DNA from: a virus
IMG/VR virus record: IMGVR_UViG_3300027763_000088
Coordinates: 1-47,105 of that record
Length of the DNA: 47,105 bases
Direction: 5' to 3' (one strand)
This document shows positions 2,403 through 47,105 of the stretch, in pieces. The position numbers were made by a program, and so were the translations under genes. The notes under the pieces were generated by a model, which had not been told where the DNA came from, made no database searches, and saw only the letters and a list, made by a program, of their open reading frames with translations. Numbering within the stretch: position 1 is the first letter of the stretch; every line of letters starts with the position of its first letter.

Positions 2403-3317
2403 ATGACAGAACCGCTCACACGGGCGAACTATCACAGCCACCCGGCGGTGAGTTCGTCGAGGTTGAAACGCGCCATTACTGGCACCGGCCGCGATTATTG
2501 GGCGCATTACGTCAACCCTGATCGGGCACCATTTGTTCCGTCTGATTTCATGCGTCAGGGGTCACTCTGCGACGTATTGATCAGCACCCCCGGCGACTTC
2601 CTGGATCTGTATATCGTCATGCCGGACGATGCGCCACGGCGGCCGACCGCAAAGCAATTGCTGGATGGACGCGATAGCAGGGCCGGCACAAAGGCGCACG
2701 ACGGCTATCTCGATGCTCAGGATCGGGAGACGTGGTGGCAGGCGTTCGAGATGCGGGCCAGCGGTCGGGAGATGATCTCCCGCGACTGGCATGACCGTGC
2801 CTCCACGATCCGGGAGACACTGGTCGATGACCCGCACATTGGGCCGATCCTGAGGGATGCAATCGCCAGCAGTCAGCAGCCCCACCAATGGGTCGATGAT
2901 GCCGGCCAGCAGCACCGGTATCTGCCCGACCTGGAGACCGCCTCGGGTGGGCTGTGGGACCTGAAAAAAGCCCGCTCTGCCAACCCCAGGCCGGCCGCTG
3001 CTCAGGCGTGGCAGCTCGCCTATGACGTGCAATTGGCGCATTATTCCCTCGGCTACGAGGACCGCCACGGCAGCACGCCGACCCAGCAGGGCCTGATCAC
3101 CTACGAATGGGAAGCGCCGCACAACTGCTGCCTGATGGTGGCGACCCCTGAGCTAATCCAGGCGGGGCAGCAGCGCAGACAAGAGGCGCTAGAGCGCATC
3201 GCCCGCTGGGAGGCTGAGCAACATTGGCCCAGCTATGGCGAGGCGCGCTGGGATGAACCGGCATGGCGGAAATCTGGGGGCGAGGCTCCCGCAATTGCTG
3301 AAATCGAACTGTTCTGA
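2403..3317 (+). CDS. RecE-like PD-(D/E)XK exonuclease
   Basis: A 304-residue protein resembling phage exonuclease VIII-type (PDDEXK) nucleases, which resect double-stranded ends so that a RecT annealase can load. Seen: an N-terminal YHSHPAVSSSRLKR segment typical of the family, then MRQGSLCDVLISTPGDF (the family's substrate-entry motif), and the likely metal site in YLPDLETASGGLWDLKKA, with Asp followed by D-x-K where many relatives have E-x-K. A helix-rich QAWQLAYDVQLAHYSLGY segment after the active site also fits. The stop overlaps the start of the RecT-like gene by one base (TGATG), so the two are translationally coupled. The RecE/RecT pairing strengthens both calls. Confidence 0.8.
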   Translation: MTEPLTRANYHSHPAVSSSRLKRAITGTGRDYWAHYVNPDRAPFVPSDFMRQGSLCDVLISTPGDFLDLYIVMPDDAPRRPTAKQLLDGRDSRAGTKAHDGYLDAQDRETWWQAFEMRASGREMISRDWHDRASTIRETLVDDPHIGPILRDAIASSQQPHQWVDDAGQQHRYLPDLETASGGLWDLKKARSANPRPAAAQAWQLAYDVQLAHYSLGYEDRHGSTPTQQGLITYEWEAPHNCCLMVATPELIQAGQQRRQEALERIARWEAEQHWPSYGEARWDEPAWRKSGGEAPAIAEIELF

Positions 3318-4186
3318 TGACTGATCCAACCTCACAACTTGCGACCACTGACGATGCAATGCGGGTGTTCTCCGGCATCGCTGCGTTTGATGCTGCCCAG
3401 CGGATGGCAAAAGCCCTCAGTAGCTCGACACTGGTGCCCCCCGAGTATCAGGGCCAACAGGGGTTGGCTAACTCATTGATTGCGCTGGAAATGTCCGGCC
3501 GGATGGGCCTTTCTCCGCTCATCGTGATGCAGAACCTGCGTATCATCTACGGCCGCCCCAGCTGGAGCAGTCAGTTTCTCATCGCCACGGTAAACGCCTC
3601 CGGTCGGTTCTCCCCGCTGCGGTTCGGCTTCGACCAGGAGGATAATCCGACATCATGCTATGCCCACGCCACTGATAAAGAATCGGGGGAGCTATTGAAA
3701 GGGCCGGCCATCACGATGGCGATGGCGCAGGCGGAGGGGTGGAGCACGAGATCAGGATCGAAGTGGAAGACCATGCCCGAGCTGATGCTCAGCTATCGCG
3801 CCGCTGCGTTCTGGGTCCGGTTGTATTGCCCTGAGATCAGCCTGGGGCTCGTCACCCAGGAGGAAGCGGTTGACATTGAAGCCGTCACCGTTTCCGAGGT
3901 GCCGGCACCTGCCCCGGCAGCGGTGGCCGCTATCGCTCCAGAGCCTGAGCCTGAGCTGCCGGCCGAGGTCGTGGAGGTGGCCGAGGTGGTGGCCCCGGGC
4001 GAGCCTGAGCCAGCTGCCCCACTGGCGCGGGGGTTGGAGTCGATCGCTGCAACCACCACCACAGAGGGCCTGGACCGTGCCGCTCAGCGTGTTGCCCAGC
4101 TGTTGGGAGATGGCGCCATCGATAAGGCCGGCGCAGCTGAGCTGCGGGCAGCGATCCGCGCTCGGGCGGCGGAGATTAAGGAATGA
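3317..4186 (+). CDS. RecT-like ssDNA annealing protein
   Basis: A 289-residue protein whose first 190 residues match the RecT annealase family: GLANSLIALEMSGRMGLSP, then VMQNLRIIYGRPSWSSQFLI, GRFSPLRFGF, and the signature run MPELMLSYRAAAFWVRLYCP followed by ISLGLVTQEEAVDI. These proteins bind the 3' overhang made by a RecE-type nuclease and anneal it to complementary strands. The C-terminal 100 residues are a Pro/Glu/Val-rich linker and a helical tail that varies in the family. The gene starts one base into the RecE-like stop and ends with a 4-bp ATGA overlap with dcm, giving one operon. Confidence 0.85.
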   Translation: MTDPTSQLATTDDAMRVFSGIAAFDAAQRMAKALSSSTLVPPEYQGQQGLANSLIALEMSGRMGLSPLIVMQNLRIIYGRPSWSSQFLIATVNASGRFSPLRFGFDQEDNPTSCYAHATDKESGELLKGPAITMAMAQAEGWSTRSGSKWKTMPELMLSYRAAAFWVRLYCPEISLGLVTQEEAVDIEAVTVSEVPAPAPAAVAAIAPEPEPELPAEVVEVAEVVAPGEPEPAAPLARGLESIAATTTTEGLDRAAQRVAQLLGDGAIDKAGAAELRAAIRARAAEIKE

Positions 4187-5130
4187 AAACTCTTCGCATG
4201 ATTGACGCTTTTAGCGGTATCGGAGGCTTCAGCTTGGCCGCCCGCTGGGTTGGCGGATTTGAGACCATCCAATTTGTTGAACGCGACCCCTACTGCCAAC
4301 AGGTCCTAGCAAAACACTGGCCCACCGTTCCGATTCACGATGACATCTGCACCTTTAACCCCGAGCCACATTCAGCCGACATTGTTTGCGGTGGATTCCC
4401 TTGCCAGGACATCAGCCAAGCCGGGAAGGGTGCCGGCCTGGCTGGCAGCCGATCGGGCCTGTTCTACGAACTGCTCAGAGTCGTTCGCTTGGTGGGACCG
4501 CGATACATCGTCCTGGAGAACGTTGCAGCAATCACTTACCGAGGGATGGACGACGTTCTCGGAGCGCTGGCCGAGGCAGGGTTTGATGCGGAATGGGCGT
4601 GCATACCGGCAGCGGCTGTGGGTGCCTGCCATCAGCGGGACCGCTGGTGGTGCGTTGCCTACGCCCAAGGCAAGCGATGGGGAGCGCGGCCGGGACAAGG
4701 CGCGAGCCAGACCGGATACCAAAGGCCGCGAACTGGCGACGGTGGTGCGGGATCAGATGTTGCCTACTCCCAGAACATGCTCAGCCATGGCGGCGCCGGT
4801 CAACAGCAGGGGCAACCTCAAGGGCAATCGGTTCCCGAATCTGGAAACGGTGATCGGGCGGATGCTGCCAACACCATTGGCCAACGATTCCCGCAACCGA
4901 TCCCTCCCGCCTTCGCGCCGCAAGAGGGGCAGCCTGCCTGGCCACCTGCTCCGCGACGACTCAATCCAGACTGGCGATCACATGTATCTCAACCCGTCCT
5001 TTGTGGAGGAGATGCAGGGCTATCCAATGGGTTGGACCGCCTGAAGGCTCTGGGAAATGCCGTGGTGCCTCAGGTGGCGATGGTGCCGCTGGCCCGAGTC
5101 TTGGAGCTGGATCTGTTGCCAGCGAAATGA
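4183..5130 (+). CDS. dcm: C5-cytosine DNA methyltransferase (copy 1)
   Basis: A 315-residue DNA cytosine-5 methyltransferase. Motif I is DAFSGIGGFSLAAR (AdoMet binding), motif IV GGFPCQDISQAG with the catalytic Cys, motif VI VLENVAAI, motif VIII ACHQRDRWW, and motif X RLKALGNAVVPQ near the C-terminus. All catalytic motifs are present; the target-recognition region (about residues 165-265) is Gly/Gln-rich and low in complexity. It would methylate phage DNA against host restriction. It overlaps recT by 4 bp. A second copy begins at 46808 and is identical to this one from 4357 to 4483. Downstream of the shared segment, sequence may belong to either copy. An unusual second reading frame runs inside it (4340-5044). 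Confidence 0.92.
   Translation: MKTLRMIDAFSGIGGFSLAARWVGGFETIQFVERDPYCQQVLAKHWPTVPIHDDICTFNPEPHSADIVCGGFPCQDISQAGKGAGLAGSRSGLFYELLRVVRLVGPRYIVLENVAAITYRGMDDVLGALAEAGFDAEWACIPAAAVGACHQRDRWWCVAYAQGKRWGARPGQGASQTGYQRPRTGDGGAGSDVAYSQNMLSHGGAGQQQGQPQGQSVPESGNGDRADAANTIGQRFPQPIPPAFAPQEGQPAWPPAPRRLNPDWRSHVSQPVLCGGDAGLSNGLDRLKALGNAVVPQVAMVPLARVLELDLLPAK
4340..5044 (+). CDS. Alternative-frame gene nested in dcm, resembling a phage protein family
   Basis: A second open frame of 234 codons lies wholly inside dcm, in another forward frame, with its own ATG. Its protein does not look like a random shadow. It has ESFAWWDRDTSSWRTLQQS, FSERWPRQGLMRNGRAYR, three spaced LPTP motifs (LPTPKASD, LPTPRT, LPTPLAND) and YLNPSFVEEMQGYPMGWT at the end. 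From memory, these are hallmarks of free-standing phage proteins of unknown function often found near methyltransferases. The alternative-frame ATG is kept in the second dcm copy (46962). Either this is an overprinted gene read in both frames, or one frame is coding and the other keeps an ancestral signal. Function unknown. Confidence 0.45.
   Translation: MTSAPLTPSHIQPTLFAVDSLARTSAKPGRVPAWLAADRACSTNCSESFAWWDRDTSSWRTLQQSLTEGWTTFSERWPRQGLMRNGRAYRQRLWVPAISGTAGGALPTPKASDGERGRDKARARPDTKGRELATVVRDQMLPTPRTCSAMAAPVNSRGNLKGNRFPNLETVIGRMLPTPLANDSRNRSLPPSRRKRGSLPGHLLRDDSIQTGDHMYLNPSFVEEMQGYPMGWTA
4357..4483. repeat. 127-bp exact repeat, internal copy
   Basis: These 127 bases are identical to the last 127 bases of the window (46979-47105). 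The base before each copy differs (T at 4356, C at 46978), and identity upstream drops to that of a homologous gene. An exact 127-bp match ending at a contig end is the classic trace of a de Bruijn assembly with k=127, so it probably marks graph closure or branching rather than a biological repeat. Confidence 0.9.
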
Positions 5131-26008: not shown

Positions 26009-28102
26009 TTGCAGAGTATCGCCTTGGCCCTTGCCTACACCACGACCCCTGGCAATGGCACGAACCGCTTGTTTTCGGTTTCGTTCCCCTACCTCGTACG
26101 AGCCCACGTCAAGGTTTACCAGAACTACAACGTCATCACGGGGAGCGGCACAGAGCTGGTGGATGGGATCGGCTTCGTCTGGCTTTCCGACACCCAGATC
26201 ACGACCACTGTTGCTCCCGCCGTGGGCACGACGATCACCGTCATCCGCAACACACCATCAGGCACGCAGCTGGTGGTCTGGGCCTCCGCCTCGCCTCCCA
26301 CGCAAACCAACCTCAACACGGCCGATCTGCAATCGCTGTACGCAATCCAAGAGCAAGCTGATCTTGCGGCCGCTGCGGCTTCCTTGGCAGTGAGCACTGC
26401 CGCGGCCGTGACAGCAGCACTGCCGTATCAGCCCATTGCGGCAGTAGCAGACATTCCGACTTCCCCGACAACCGGCCAGCGGATTGAAATCAGCAACACC
26501 ACTGGGTTGGGATCGTTTGCCCCGCTGACCGGGAAGCCGACCGGATTTGTTGGCGGCACAGATGTGAAAGCCCGATTGATTTATGGCAGCCCCATCGCTG
26601 TCTCCTGGAACTGGGTGGACTATTCCCCAGTGGATCCCGATGGCCGCTATACGCCTATGTTGATCAGCCAAGCAGGCACGGGTGCAATCGCCAGGACTGT
26701 GCAAGCAAGGATCGCAGACTATCCATCTATTCTTGATTATTCCACCCTTCAACAGGCGCTGACGACCAACAACTCAATCGAGCTGCCGCCTGGGATATTT
26801 CTACTGACTTCTGAATTGGCCATCCCGAGGGATGCGCTAAGGATTCGCGGGGCAGGGGCAGGGCGAACCATTATTCGCTGTGCATCCAGCATGGCGTCCG
26901 GCCATGCTTTTGTTTTGACCGGACGCAACAACTGCGTGTTCGAGGGGTTTAGCCTTGATTGCAATGCAAGTGCCCGCGGCTTGCTGACGGGATCTGGCTA
27001 CAACGGCTTTAGCGTGCAGGGCAACGGCAACACCTGGTCTGGCGTCGAGGTCTACGGGGCCCCGCTTTACGGCATCTTGATTGACGGAAACTCAATTACA
27101 TCAACTGAAAATTTAATTGAGCGTTGCTACGTCAAGTTGAACGGAGGGACCGGCGTCGCCCTCAACAAAGCAAATCAAACAAAAATAATCAACAATCGCT
27201 TTAATGACAATGGCTACGAAAACCTTACGGTAGACATTAGTTCGACGGGAAACATGGTGACTGGGAACCATTTCCTGAAGCACCGGGGAGGGTGCGGAAA
27301 CGTCGGATGGGACGATTCCGACGCTTCTATTTTTGCCAACAATTACATCAACAGTGAAAATACCACCGTCCCTGCCCTTGGTACGCGCAATGGCCTTGTG
27401 ATAAATAGCGAGGCCGGGACAACAACCGGAGCACTCATCGAGGGCAATATCATTATTAACTGTAACCAATATGGCCTTATCCTTAGGAACCGATCTGGCG
27501 AGGCCAATCCGTCACCACCGCCAAACTGGAATCCTTCAAAGCCGGGGGACGCAATGATCTCAGGAAACTACCTTCGCAACAACCTTACCGCAGACATCCG
27601 GGTAGAAGATACTAATGAGTTGATTATTTTTGGGTATAACAACTATCAGACAATCCAGATTACTGACCCTGATGCGGCAAACGTAAGGCTTCCCGCTGGG
27701 GATGCAAGCGCAGAACTTTACCTTAATACTACTCAATCTATTGCCGGTAACGCGTTCACTGCGGTTGCGTTTGATACGGCTGTTGCCCTGAGGGCTATCA
27801 CTGCATCTGGCGGCGTGCTCACTCTGCCCTGCGGGGGATTCTACACAATTAACACTAAGGTGCGGGTCAACCTGCTGGCCACTGGCATTACCAGCGTCCA
27901 GCTTCGCGTTGTCACCCCAAGTGGAAATAGGGTAGTAAATGCAGTTGTTCCGAGCGGGCAAACTGTCGTAGAGGTAGGTTGTAGCATTTCTAAATTTATG
28001 TCACAAGGCACTGTAAGAGTTGAGGTCTATCCCTTTGGGACCGGCACCGTTCAACTCACAAGTGGCTCGGAGAACTGGCTTACCATCGTCAATGCTGGCT
28101 AA
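26009..28102 (+). CDS. Tail fibre/tailspike, gp17-like N-terminus with beta-helix
   Basis: A 697-residue receptor-binding protein. Residues 1-115 match the T7 gp17 virion-attachment domain (RLFSVSFPYLVRAHVKVYQN, NTPSGTQLVVWASASPPTQT, LQSLYAIQEQADLAAAA). Residues about 240-540 are a right-handed parallel beta-helix with many short Asn/Gly-rich coils (FEGFSLDCNASARG, KIINNRFNDNGYENLTV, LIEGNIIINCNQYGLIL), as in polysaccharide-binding or -cleaving tailspikes. A beta-rich C-terminal knob follows. The beta-helix DNA is clearly less GC-rich than the N-terminal part, pointing to exchange of the host-range module. No ATG starts the frame; TTG at 26009 is the best start but lacks a well-placed ribosome-binding site. 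Confidence 0.88.
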   Translation: MQSIALALAYTTTPGNGTNRLFSVSFPYLVRAHVKVYQNYNVITGSGTELVDGIGFVWLSDTQITTTVAPAVGTTITVIRNTPSGTQLVVWASASPPTQTNLNTADLQSLYAIQEQADLAAAAASLAVSTAAAVTAALPYQPIAAVADIPTSPTTGQRIEISNTTGLGSFAPLTGKPTGFVGGTDVKARLIYGSPIAVSWNWVDYSPVDPDGRYTPMLISQAGTGAIARTVQARIADYPSILDYSTLQQALTTNNSIELPPGIFLLTSELAIPRDALRIRGAGAGRTIIRCASSMASGHAFVLTGRNNCVFEGFSLDCNASARGLLTGSGYNGFSVQGNGNTWSGVEVYGAPLYGILIDGNSITSTENLIERCYVKLNGGTGVALNKANQTKIINNRFNDNGYENLTVDISSTGNMVTGNHFLKHRGGCGNVGWDDSDASIFANNYINSENTTVPALGTRNGLVINSEAGTTTGALIEGNIIINCNQYGLILRNRSGEANPSPPPNWNPSKPGDAMISGNYLRNNLTADIRVEDTNELIIFGYNNYQTIQITDPDAANVRLPAGDASAELYLNTTQSIAGNAFTAVAFDTAVALRAITASGGVLTLPCGGFYTINTKVRVNLLATGITSVQLRVVTPSGNRVVNAVVPSGQTVVEVGCSISKFMSQGTVRVEVYPFGTGTVQLTSGSENWLTIVNAG

Positions 28103-46066: not shown

Positions 46067-46827
46067 CCGATCAACCCAGGGCCCTGGTGGATGCGGAGCT
46101 CTACCTCCGCCGCTGCACCGCCGCAGCTGAATACGAGATCGAGTGGGCACCAGATGACTGGACCTACGTGTGCCGTCACGGCCAGGCCAAGGCCAGCTTT
46201 CAGGACTTCTTGGCGTCCGTCCGCGACGCGCTGCCCGACCACCAGCTGCACCTGTGCCTCGGCACTGCCGCCAGCTTCCGCTACAGCCTGTTCAGCGCCT
46301 ACAAGGCGAACCGCAAGGCATCCCGCAAGCCGGCCGGCTACGGCGCCCTGACCCGATGGGTAATCGAGGCCGGTGAGGTGCGGGGCTGGAACATCGCCAT
46401 GCTGGCCGAGGTCGAGGCCGACGACGTGATGGGGATCCTCTGCCGCCCTGGTGATGTGATCGTCTCAGAGGACAAGGACATGCTGGGGATCCCTGGTCTG
46501 CACCTTCGAGGCACGGAATTCGTGGAGGTTTCTCGGCGCGAGGCTGACATCAATGTGTTCTCGCAGGCGCTGATCGGCGACACCACAGACAACTACCCCG
46601 GCTGCCCTGGCATCGGCAAGGTGAAAGCCGAGGGCATCCTGGCCGGACAGCCCGATGCTGCAGCGATGTGGGCGGCCGTGTTGAAGGCCTTCAAGAAGGC
46701 CGGCCTCACCCGCCGGGACGCCATCACCCAGGTGCGGCTGGCCCGCATTTTGCGTGCTGGCGAATATGACGTGGATCGAGAACTGCCGATCCTGTGGAAC
46801 CCACCTGATGACGCTGCGCCTGCTTGA
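46063..46827 (+). CDS. 5'-3' exonuclease, T7 gp6-like
   Basis: A 254-residue flap/5'-exonuclease of the T7 gp6 type, which in T7 degrades host DNA, removes primers and promotes recombination. Seen: FRYSLFSAYKANRKASRKPA (the arch region), LAEVEADDVMG with metal-binding Asp residues, VIVSEDKDMLGIPG (second Asp pair), and IGDTTDNYPGCPGIGKVKAE, the helix-hairpin-helix with its third Asp cluster. GTG at 46063 in a GTGA overlap with the Lar-like gene is the best start; upstream in-frame codons would cover that gene. It overlaps dcm by 20 bp. Place before the late genes equals T7 gene 6. Confidence 0.9.
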   Translation: MTDQPRALVDAELYLRRCTAAAEYEIEWAPDDWTYVCRHGQAKASFQDFLASVRDALPDHQLHLCLGTAASFRYSLFSAYKANRKASRKPAGYGALTRWVIEAGEVRGWNIAMLAEVEADDVMGILCRPGDVIVSEDKDMLGIPGLHLRGTEFVEVSRREADINVFSQALIGDTTDNYPGCPGIGKVKAEGILAGQPDAAAMWAAVLKAFKKAGLTRRDAITQVRLARILRAGEYDVDRELPILWNPPDDAAPA

Positions 46828-47105
46828 CACCTTCAGCGGCATCGGTGGCTTCTCATTGGCGGCCCGCTGGCTCGGCGGCTTTGAAACCGTCCAGTTCGTT
46901 GAGCGCGACCCCTACTGCCAGCGCATCCTCGCCAAACACTGGCCCACCGTTCCCATTCACGATGACATCTGCACCTTCAACCCCGAGCCACATTCAGCCG
47001 ACATTGTTTGCGGTGGATTCCCTTGCCAGGACATCAGCCAAGCCGGGAAGGGTGCCGGCCTGGCTGGCAGCCGATCGGGCCTGTTCTACGAACTGCTCAG
47101 AGTCG
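46808..47105 (+). CDS. dcm: C5-cytosine DNA methyltransferase (copy 2), cut by the contig end
   Basis: The first 99 codons of a methyltransferase nearly identical to copy 1 (4183). It starts MTLRLLDTFSGIGGFSLAAR instead of MKTLRMIDAFSGIGGFSLAA, and reaches past the catalytic GGFPCQDIS motif. The first 170 bases differ from copy 1 at scattered positions; the last 127 are identical. If the contig closes to a circle, this start joins the copy 1 sequence at 4484 and gives a complete enzyme of 316 residues. It follows the exonuclease with a 20-bp overlap. Confidence 0.88.
   Translation, partial: MTLRLLDTFSGIGGFSLAARWLGGFETVQFVERDPYCQRILAKHWPTVPIHDDICTFNPEPHSADIVCGGFPCQDISQAGKGAGLAGSRSGLFYELLRV
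46962..47105 (+). CDS. Alternative-frame ORF in dcm copy 2, partial
   Basis: The ATG of the nested frame described at 4340 is kept here, and the frame stays open to the window end (start MTSAPSTPSHIQPTLFAVDS). Against copy 1 the upstream DNA has diverged, yet this start codon is unchanged. It would continue into 4484-5044 if the genome closes as a circle. Confidence 0.35.
   Translation, partial: MTSAPSTPSHIQPTLFAVDSLARTSAKPGRVPAWLAADRACSTNCSES
46979..47105. repeat. 127-bp exact repeat, terminal copy
   Basis: Identical to 4357-4483. It lies at the very end of the window, so the contig overlaps itself by 127 bases. Removing one copy closes a 42,622-bp circle. Confidence 0.9.

Follow-up and report, generated by a model that had tools for sequence, protein, structure and literature searches.

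The outer and nested genes at positions 4183–5130 of the window (the whole stretch of 47,105 nucleotides that was analysed) very probably encode a single two-polypeptide C5-cytosine methyltransferase from overlapping frames, in the arrangement of M.EcoHK31I. The outer protein, alpha, would be the large domain, with AdoMet binding, the catalytic PCQ, motifs I–VIII and a motif X helix reached via a long unstructured linker. The nested protein, beta, would be the small DNA-reading domain, consisting of an N-terminal piece over motifs IV–VIII, cassettes headed by LPTP, and motif IX; its translation probably starts at an internal ATG of its own. This reading draws on the frame relation, the selection on both frames, the division of the motifs, the unstructured middle of alpha and the reshuffling of the cassettes, as far as sequence comparison reaches. 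We infer that the two polypeptides would bind each other non-covalently to form what amounts to a single M.HhaI-like enzyme, that the cassettes would act as recognition units, and that the complex would methylate the phage DNA at one or several sequences and presumably counter host restriction.

The two overlapping genes in the window

The gene content of the window was podovirus-like, with RecT, exonuclease VIII, a head-tail adaptor, a major head protein, a single-chain RNA polymerase and an integrase. Among named phages, Synechococcus phage S-H1 was the nearest DNA relative of the methyltransferase. Alpha matched PF00145 (2.8e-35), with the match confined to residues 5–167, and phrog_363 (2e-73). 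The features of the locus were as follows, with the subunit and domain names being those of the proposed reading.

4183–5130, + strand: alpha subunit gene, C5-cytosine methyltransferase with motifs I–VIII and X, 315 aa, no structure predicted for residues 166–286 (PF00145, phrog_363, AF2)
4204–4227, + strand: alpha motif I, DAFSGIGG
4340–5044, + strand: gene of the beta subunit, lying within alpha in the +1 frame, 234 aa, ATG start; putative recognition region and motif IX
4340–4342, + strand: beta ATG start, arising from the alpha HDD codons (CAC GAT GAC)
4390–4416, + strand: alpha motif IV with the catalytic PCQ, GGFPCQDIS; its +1 reading is beta VDSLARTS
4481–4654, + strand: beta N-domain, SFAWWDR...SSWRT...WPRQGLMRNG..., over alpha motifs VI–VIII (codon-position divergence)
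4655–4759, + strand: beta cassette A, LPTPKASDGERGRDKARARPDTKGRELATVVRDQM, 35 codons
4760–4864, + strand: beta cassette C, LPTPRTCSAMAAPVNSRGNLKGNRFPNLETVIGRM, 35 codons
4865–4987, + strand: beta cassette B and linker, LPTPLANDS...QTGDHMY, 41 codons
4988–5038, + strand: beta motif IX, LNPSFVEEMQGYPMGWT (profile alignment, codon-position divergence)
5041–5079, + strand: alpha motif X, LKALGNAVVPQVA, directly 3' of the beta end; alpha helix 296–311
46805–47105, + strand: second alpha copy, partial because the contig ends inside it; a nested beta start is present at 46962

The nested frame had been described in a sequence-only reading of this DNA, and it was found exactly there, on the + strand, with an ATG, 234 aa and an offset of +1 in the outer gene. 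The peptides quoted in that reading were present, and its correspondence between the frames was correct, as SSWRT (4508–4522) is the +1 reading of VLENV (4510–4524). The length of the frame on its own is weak evidence, because the +1 frame stayed open with P = 0.023 (about 0.02) when the outer gene was shuffled synonymously, and longer frames were present elsewhere in the GC-rich window, such as one of 663 aa in antisense. The conservation seen among related sequences was taken as decisive for the reality of the nested frame. Beta matched phrog_1008 with E = 4e-27 (residues 12–233 on profile positions 37–279 of 329), and tblastn with beta returned 159 phage records and 7 plasmid records, which bore out the claim of a conserved second protein in another frame of a methyltransferase gene. 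The close relatives carried no stop codon in the nested frame.

An in-frame ATG was found at the beta start codon or one codon upstream in 29 of 31 close relatives, while two had none, and it overlies HDD, YDD or HGD codons of alpha among the relatives. No obvious Shine–Dalgarno sequence was seen 5' of the beta ATG. The earlier reading had pointed to the ATG kept in the second copy at 46962. That ATG is present, but it is uninformative as evidence, because the two copies are nearly identical in that part: the copies differed at 27 of 123 positions up to 4312, but at just 2 of the 172 that follow. The conservation of the ATG among the relatives is better evidence. Recombination or gene conversion might account for the break in divergence of the second copy, or the assembly might have broken at a repeat. 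The related contigs L021, L028 and L029 likewise ended within the methyltransferase gene.

Selection on both frames and the division of the motifs

Divergence by codon position was determined with 31 related sequences. The third-position divergence of alpha was 0.52 before beta and 0.51 after the beta end, and inside the overlap up to motif VIII it was 0.34, 0.37 and 0.27. At motif IX it fell to 0.22, which was below that of position 1 (0.27). The dip reflects constraint on beta, because alpha position 3 is beta position 2 in the overlap. Compared with this, canonical methyltransferases without a nested match had a flat third-position profile of 0.64–0.68 with no dip. The divergence of beta positions 1, 2 and 3 was 0.353, 0.371 and 0.469 in the recognition region and 0.037, 0.036 and 0.143 at motif IX, respectively, and these two parts show the signature of a coding beta frame. 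In the N-terminal half of beta the values were 0.10, 0.26 and 0.15, and the constraint of alpha dominates there. Conversely, the alpha frame had no stops across the beta end in 150 nested loci, against only 8 loci expected to be open under beta-synonymous shuffling; without an open frame there, alpha would not extend as far as motif X.

The end of beta, LNPSFVEEMQGYPMGWT, shares the spacing of the canonical motif IX, LTPRECARLQGFPD. In an unselected profile comparison of the C-terminal regions, the best match of beta was the canonical motif IX (P = 0.017), and the best match of alpha was motif X at the right place, with a non-significant P of 0.28. The profile score of the beta motif IX was 21.4, compared with at most 15.2 in 30 shuffles. 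A motif-selected comparison, which is partly circular, gave P = 2e-5, and hhalign with six canonical sequences, which is too small a set, gave P = 0.49. In a Pfam scan of the type B and type C proteins, the match did not reach motifs IX–X, and beta had no match among Pfam models, NCBIfam models and PDB sequences. The sequence-only reading had placed beta among proteins of unknown function. This view had to be given up, as beta ends in what reads as a C5-methyltransferase motif IX, the very motif missing from the outer protein.

The AF2 model of alpha (74 sequences) had a pLDDT of about 95 for residues 1–70 and of 70–97 for residues 71–165. Over residues 170–286 it was mostly below about 50, with almost no secondary structure, and it was 83–95 at residues 291–310, where the motif X helix region (290–311) was confident. 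Against the PDB, M.HhaI led the matches of the model (E = 3e-15, about 166 aligned columns), and this enzyme has been described as having two domains, large and small (PMC3404938). The AlphaFold model of beta (14 sequences) had a mean pLDDT of 41.6 and no confident fold. Alpha looks like the large domain (motifs I–VIII and X), and beta, with the recognition region and motif IX, resembles the small one, because of the motif split, the rearrangements of the locus described below and the model of alpha.

Distribution, cassettes and variants of the overlap

In single-pattern scans, at least 503 beta relatives were found in viral contigs and at least 390 in genome contigs. The 80 best genome loci belonged to Pseudomonadota, Actinomycetota, Verrucomicrobiota, Planctomycetota, Bacillota, Nitrospirota, Patescibacteria, others and one euryarchaeal bin, and many of them may be prophages. 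In one class-wide sample, beta was present in 7 of 274 bacterial genomes. The nested gene is thus widespread, though uncommon. The locus sets were the best 80 of larger hit lists, with phylogenetically non-independent members; at the loci found with beta and holding both parts, beta lay in the +1 frame of alpha in 191 of 192. In the 192nd (L084), an indel has probably brought the two parts into a single frame; it had lost motifs VI–VIII, and either a natural frameshift or an assembly error may be involved. No case of beta without alpha was seen among loci with enough flank, and the two loci without an alpha match (L028 and L155) were both cut by contig ends.

Because the 192 loci had been found with beta, a reverse search was run with alpha motifs I–VIII alone as the bait. 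In its best 80 loci, beta was at +1 in 80/80, motif X was in alpha in 75/80 and motif IX was in alpha in 1/80. For the control set of canonical methyltransferases (best 80), motif IX was in frame in 59/80. The nested protein carried motif IX at 164 of the 192 loci, nearly always where the outer protein was without it. At all the loci compared, the nested protein is thus the partner of a methyltransferase whose gene it overlaps. The proposal of a free-standing family was not sustained, as a methyltransferase overlapped the nested protein at every locus with sufficient flank. The check for homologues outside the overlap, which found none, removes this free-standing part alone, and the protein itself stands. 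In the openly licensed literature, no paper was found on how widespread the overlap is.

After the N-domain, beta is a series of LPTP-headed units, in the order A-C-B in the window. A further class, D, was an artefact that had matched SWRTL, and the order is therefore not D-A-C-B. The orders in relatives included A-B, C-B, C-E, H-C-B, H-C-G-E and A-F-E. The number of LPTP units per beta was 1–9 across 226 proteins, counts that include false starts such as class D, and the median length of the non-terminal cassettes in these proteins was 36 residues, again with some false starts included. Such reshuffling is as expected of exchangeable target-recognition units, and the LPTP cassettes are probably target-recognition domains. 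The temperate Bacillus phages SPR, phi3T and SPbeta have multispecific C5 methyltransferases with consecutive short recognition units. The cassettes resemble these units, and this suggests that beta may determine one or several target sequences. The units are consecutive and of similar size in both systems, though putative and reshuffled here, with the median given above; however, the Bacillus-phage enzymes are single-chain with motif IX in frame, whereas here the cassettes and motif IX lie in an overlapping +1 subunit and the cassettes are read in two frames. In the Arthrobacter phage Lymara (L007), a 513-aa beta frame with many LPTP cassettes at 2920–4458 was annotated as a hypothetical protein; it is possibly a highly multispecific recognition subunit.

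Several loci were rearranged. In the actinophages Samy and Eesa (L008 and L010), alpha ended after motif VIII, and beta carried a IX-like segment and motif X. Motifs IX and X were in the alpha frame in L025, L026 and L030. These three loci and L009 and L092 have an outer frame that regained IX and X, and their nested N-domain with LPTP units, without IX, was open; L009 was assigned by eye and has one atypical residue in its motif IX. An N-domain kept open without IX suggests a function of its own. In L022 and L023, indels fused the N-terminal part of beta to the alpha C-terminus, which might be natural frameshifts or assembly errors.

Some C5 methyltransferases of streptococcal phages (L364–L443, L261, L230 and L444), which emerged from the canonical control set and have motifs I–X in frame, also carried a nested +1 ORF that is conserved and under selection. 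It had at least 120 open codons in 63/63 distinct relatives, and the third-position divergence was 0.19–0.43 over the overlap (codons 41–180) and 0.45–0.62 elsewhere in the gene. The nested protein ends in CSLSDILEEQVDEKYFLS, without motif IX; other canonical enzymes keep the CSLSDILEEQVDEKYFLS segment in the main frame. In the pneumococcal phage SpSL1 (L444), the nested ORF was at 26903–27397 and apparently unannotated; the m5C methylation of this phage has been mapped by bisulfite (PMC6755750).

Alternative explanations and comparison with known enzymes

The nested frame could be a non-coding shadow, with conserved methyltransferase motifs and the codon usage of GC-rich DNA making it look open and similar among relatives. 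Spurious long frames abound in the window, the openness of the +1 frame had only P = 0.023, and homologous outer genes automatically yield similar +1 readings. However, the third-position divergence drops in the overlap and recovers right after it, a dip that canonical genes do not have, and the recognition region and motif IX carry a coding beta pattern, with motif IX itself in frame. In addition, 79/80 loci were open, against 9.25 expected. The shadow is thus already contradicted, and its probability is close to negligible. An explanation close to that of the sequence-only reading is an independent protein that arose by overprinting, for example an anti-restriction or regulatory factor, with a chance likeness to a methyltransferase end. 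The N-terminal half is truly overprinted and selected and may have its own role, and in the type C loci (L009, L025, L026 and L030) and the streptococcal phages the nested protein is without IX while the outer has IX and X. Against this, motif IX was nested in 164/192 loci and nearly always so when the outer protein was without it, a free-standing copy was not found, and alpha alone has no folded recognition domain, so that an independent protein is improbable.

Programmed ribosomal frameshifting could instead join the beta sequence into one chain rather than two subunits. In the DNA, motif VIII, the recognition region and motifs IX and X follow one another in collinear order, and the actinophage loci L005, L007, L008, L010 and L034, where beta carries IX and X, need one shift only. 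The nested arrangement, however, requires two shifts per message, selection acts on the long stretch of the beta frame upstream, and an in-frame ATG is kept in 29/31, which leaves frameshifting very improbable. The two-subunit explanation has points against it as well: the low pLDDT of beta (41.6) with no Pfam, NCBIfam or PDB sequence match, the lack of a recognisable Shine–Dalgarno sequence before the beta ATG with 2/31 relatives without the ATG, and the recognition domain of M.EcoHK31I, which is predicted in the larger subunit, unlike here.

M.EcoHK31I is a two-polypeptide C5 methyltransferase with the specificity YGGCCR, and both polypeptides are needed for methylation. Lee, Kam and Shaw reportedly found in 1995 that the coding sequence of its small subunit lies inside the larger gene, in a shifted frame. 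Motifs I–VIII and X are in its larger subunit, together with the predicted recognition domain, and IX is in the smaller (PMC3404938). Similarly, alpha has I–VIII and X without IX, motif IX is in the smaller polypeptide, and the latter is in a shifted frame, here +1 (191/192 loci). Contrary to the prediction for M.EcoHK31I, alpha is predicted to be unstructured in the corresponding part, and beta carries a constrained recognition region with tandem cassettes; moreover, the window-type pairs sit in phage genomes without a noted restriction partner. The likeness is a shared arrangement, not membership by homology. EcoHK31I-like DNA was not found in E. coli genomes, and the window DNA had no match there. 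The cyanobacterial alpha/beta C5 methyltransferase M.AquI is split after motif VIII, and its small subunit carries IX and X. The enzyme of the window is likewise divided after motif VIII between two polypeptides, but its motif X is in the alpha frame and not in the smaller polypeptide; the five actinophage members named above are AquI-like. Beta is a member of phrog_1008 ('DNA methyltransferase', no Pfam), a label that is silent on the overlap with another methyltransferase family. Some annotators have nevertheless marked the protein, as in the Paenibacillus phage Shelly, where it is called 'g55 internal gene'.

The claim that the nested protein arose by overprinting of a methyltransferase gene was half right. 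The N-terminal half (SFAWW, SSWRT, WPRxGxxRNG) is printed over motifs IV–VIII, but the C-terminal half is no new protein: in the shifted frame it holds the recognition region and motif IX of the methyltransferase itself, and here it is the outer frame that overprints. The overprinting thus looks reciprocal, with beta the apparent newcomer over motifs IV–VIII and alpha over the recognition region and IX (residues 166–286). In the simplest history, the frame would have shifted to +1 past motif VIII and returned ahead of motif X, and the beginning of beta would have come from an open +1 leader. There is about an even chance that the locus represents a widespread phage and bacterial C5 class of such reciprocally overprinted pairs, with dual-coding cassette exchange and a second version in streptococcal phages. 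In such a class, an ancestral single-chain gene would have had one part carried over to the +1 frame by compensating frameshifts. Beta would have acquired a new N-domain over IV–VIII, while over the recognition region alpha would have acquired a new linker, and the cassettes would be swapped as dual-coding blocks open in both frames. In the streptococcal version, only the segment after motif VIII (CSLSDILEEQVDEKYFLS) would be in the nested frame.

To our knowledge, long same-strand overlapping pairs with both products understood are rare in prokaryotes. The pair described here is common and old, and with both frames in one enzyme, adaptive conflict might be followed at single sites. Among the genes that carry the annotation of a single 'DNA cytosine methyltransferase', many may be half an enzyme, with the sequence-reading half unannotated. 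In that case, neither cloning nor a prediction of specificity would succeed with only the outer protein. Should the cassettes be recognition units, the methylation specificity of phages that escape restriction would follow a natural, modular code.
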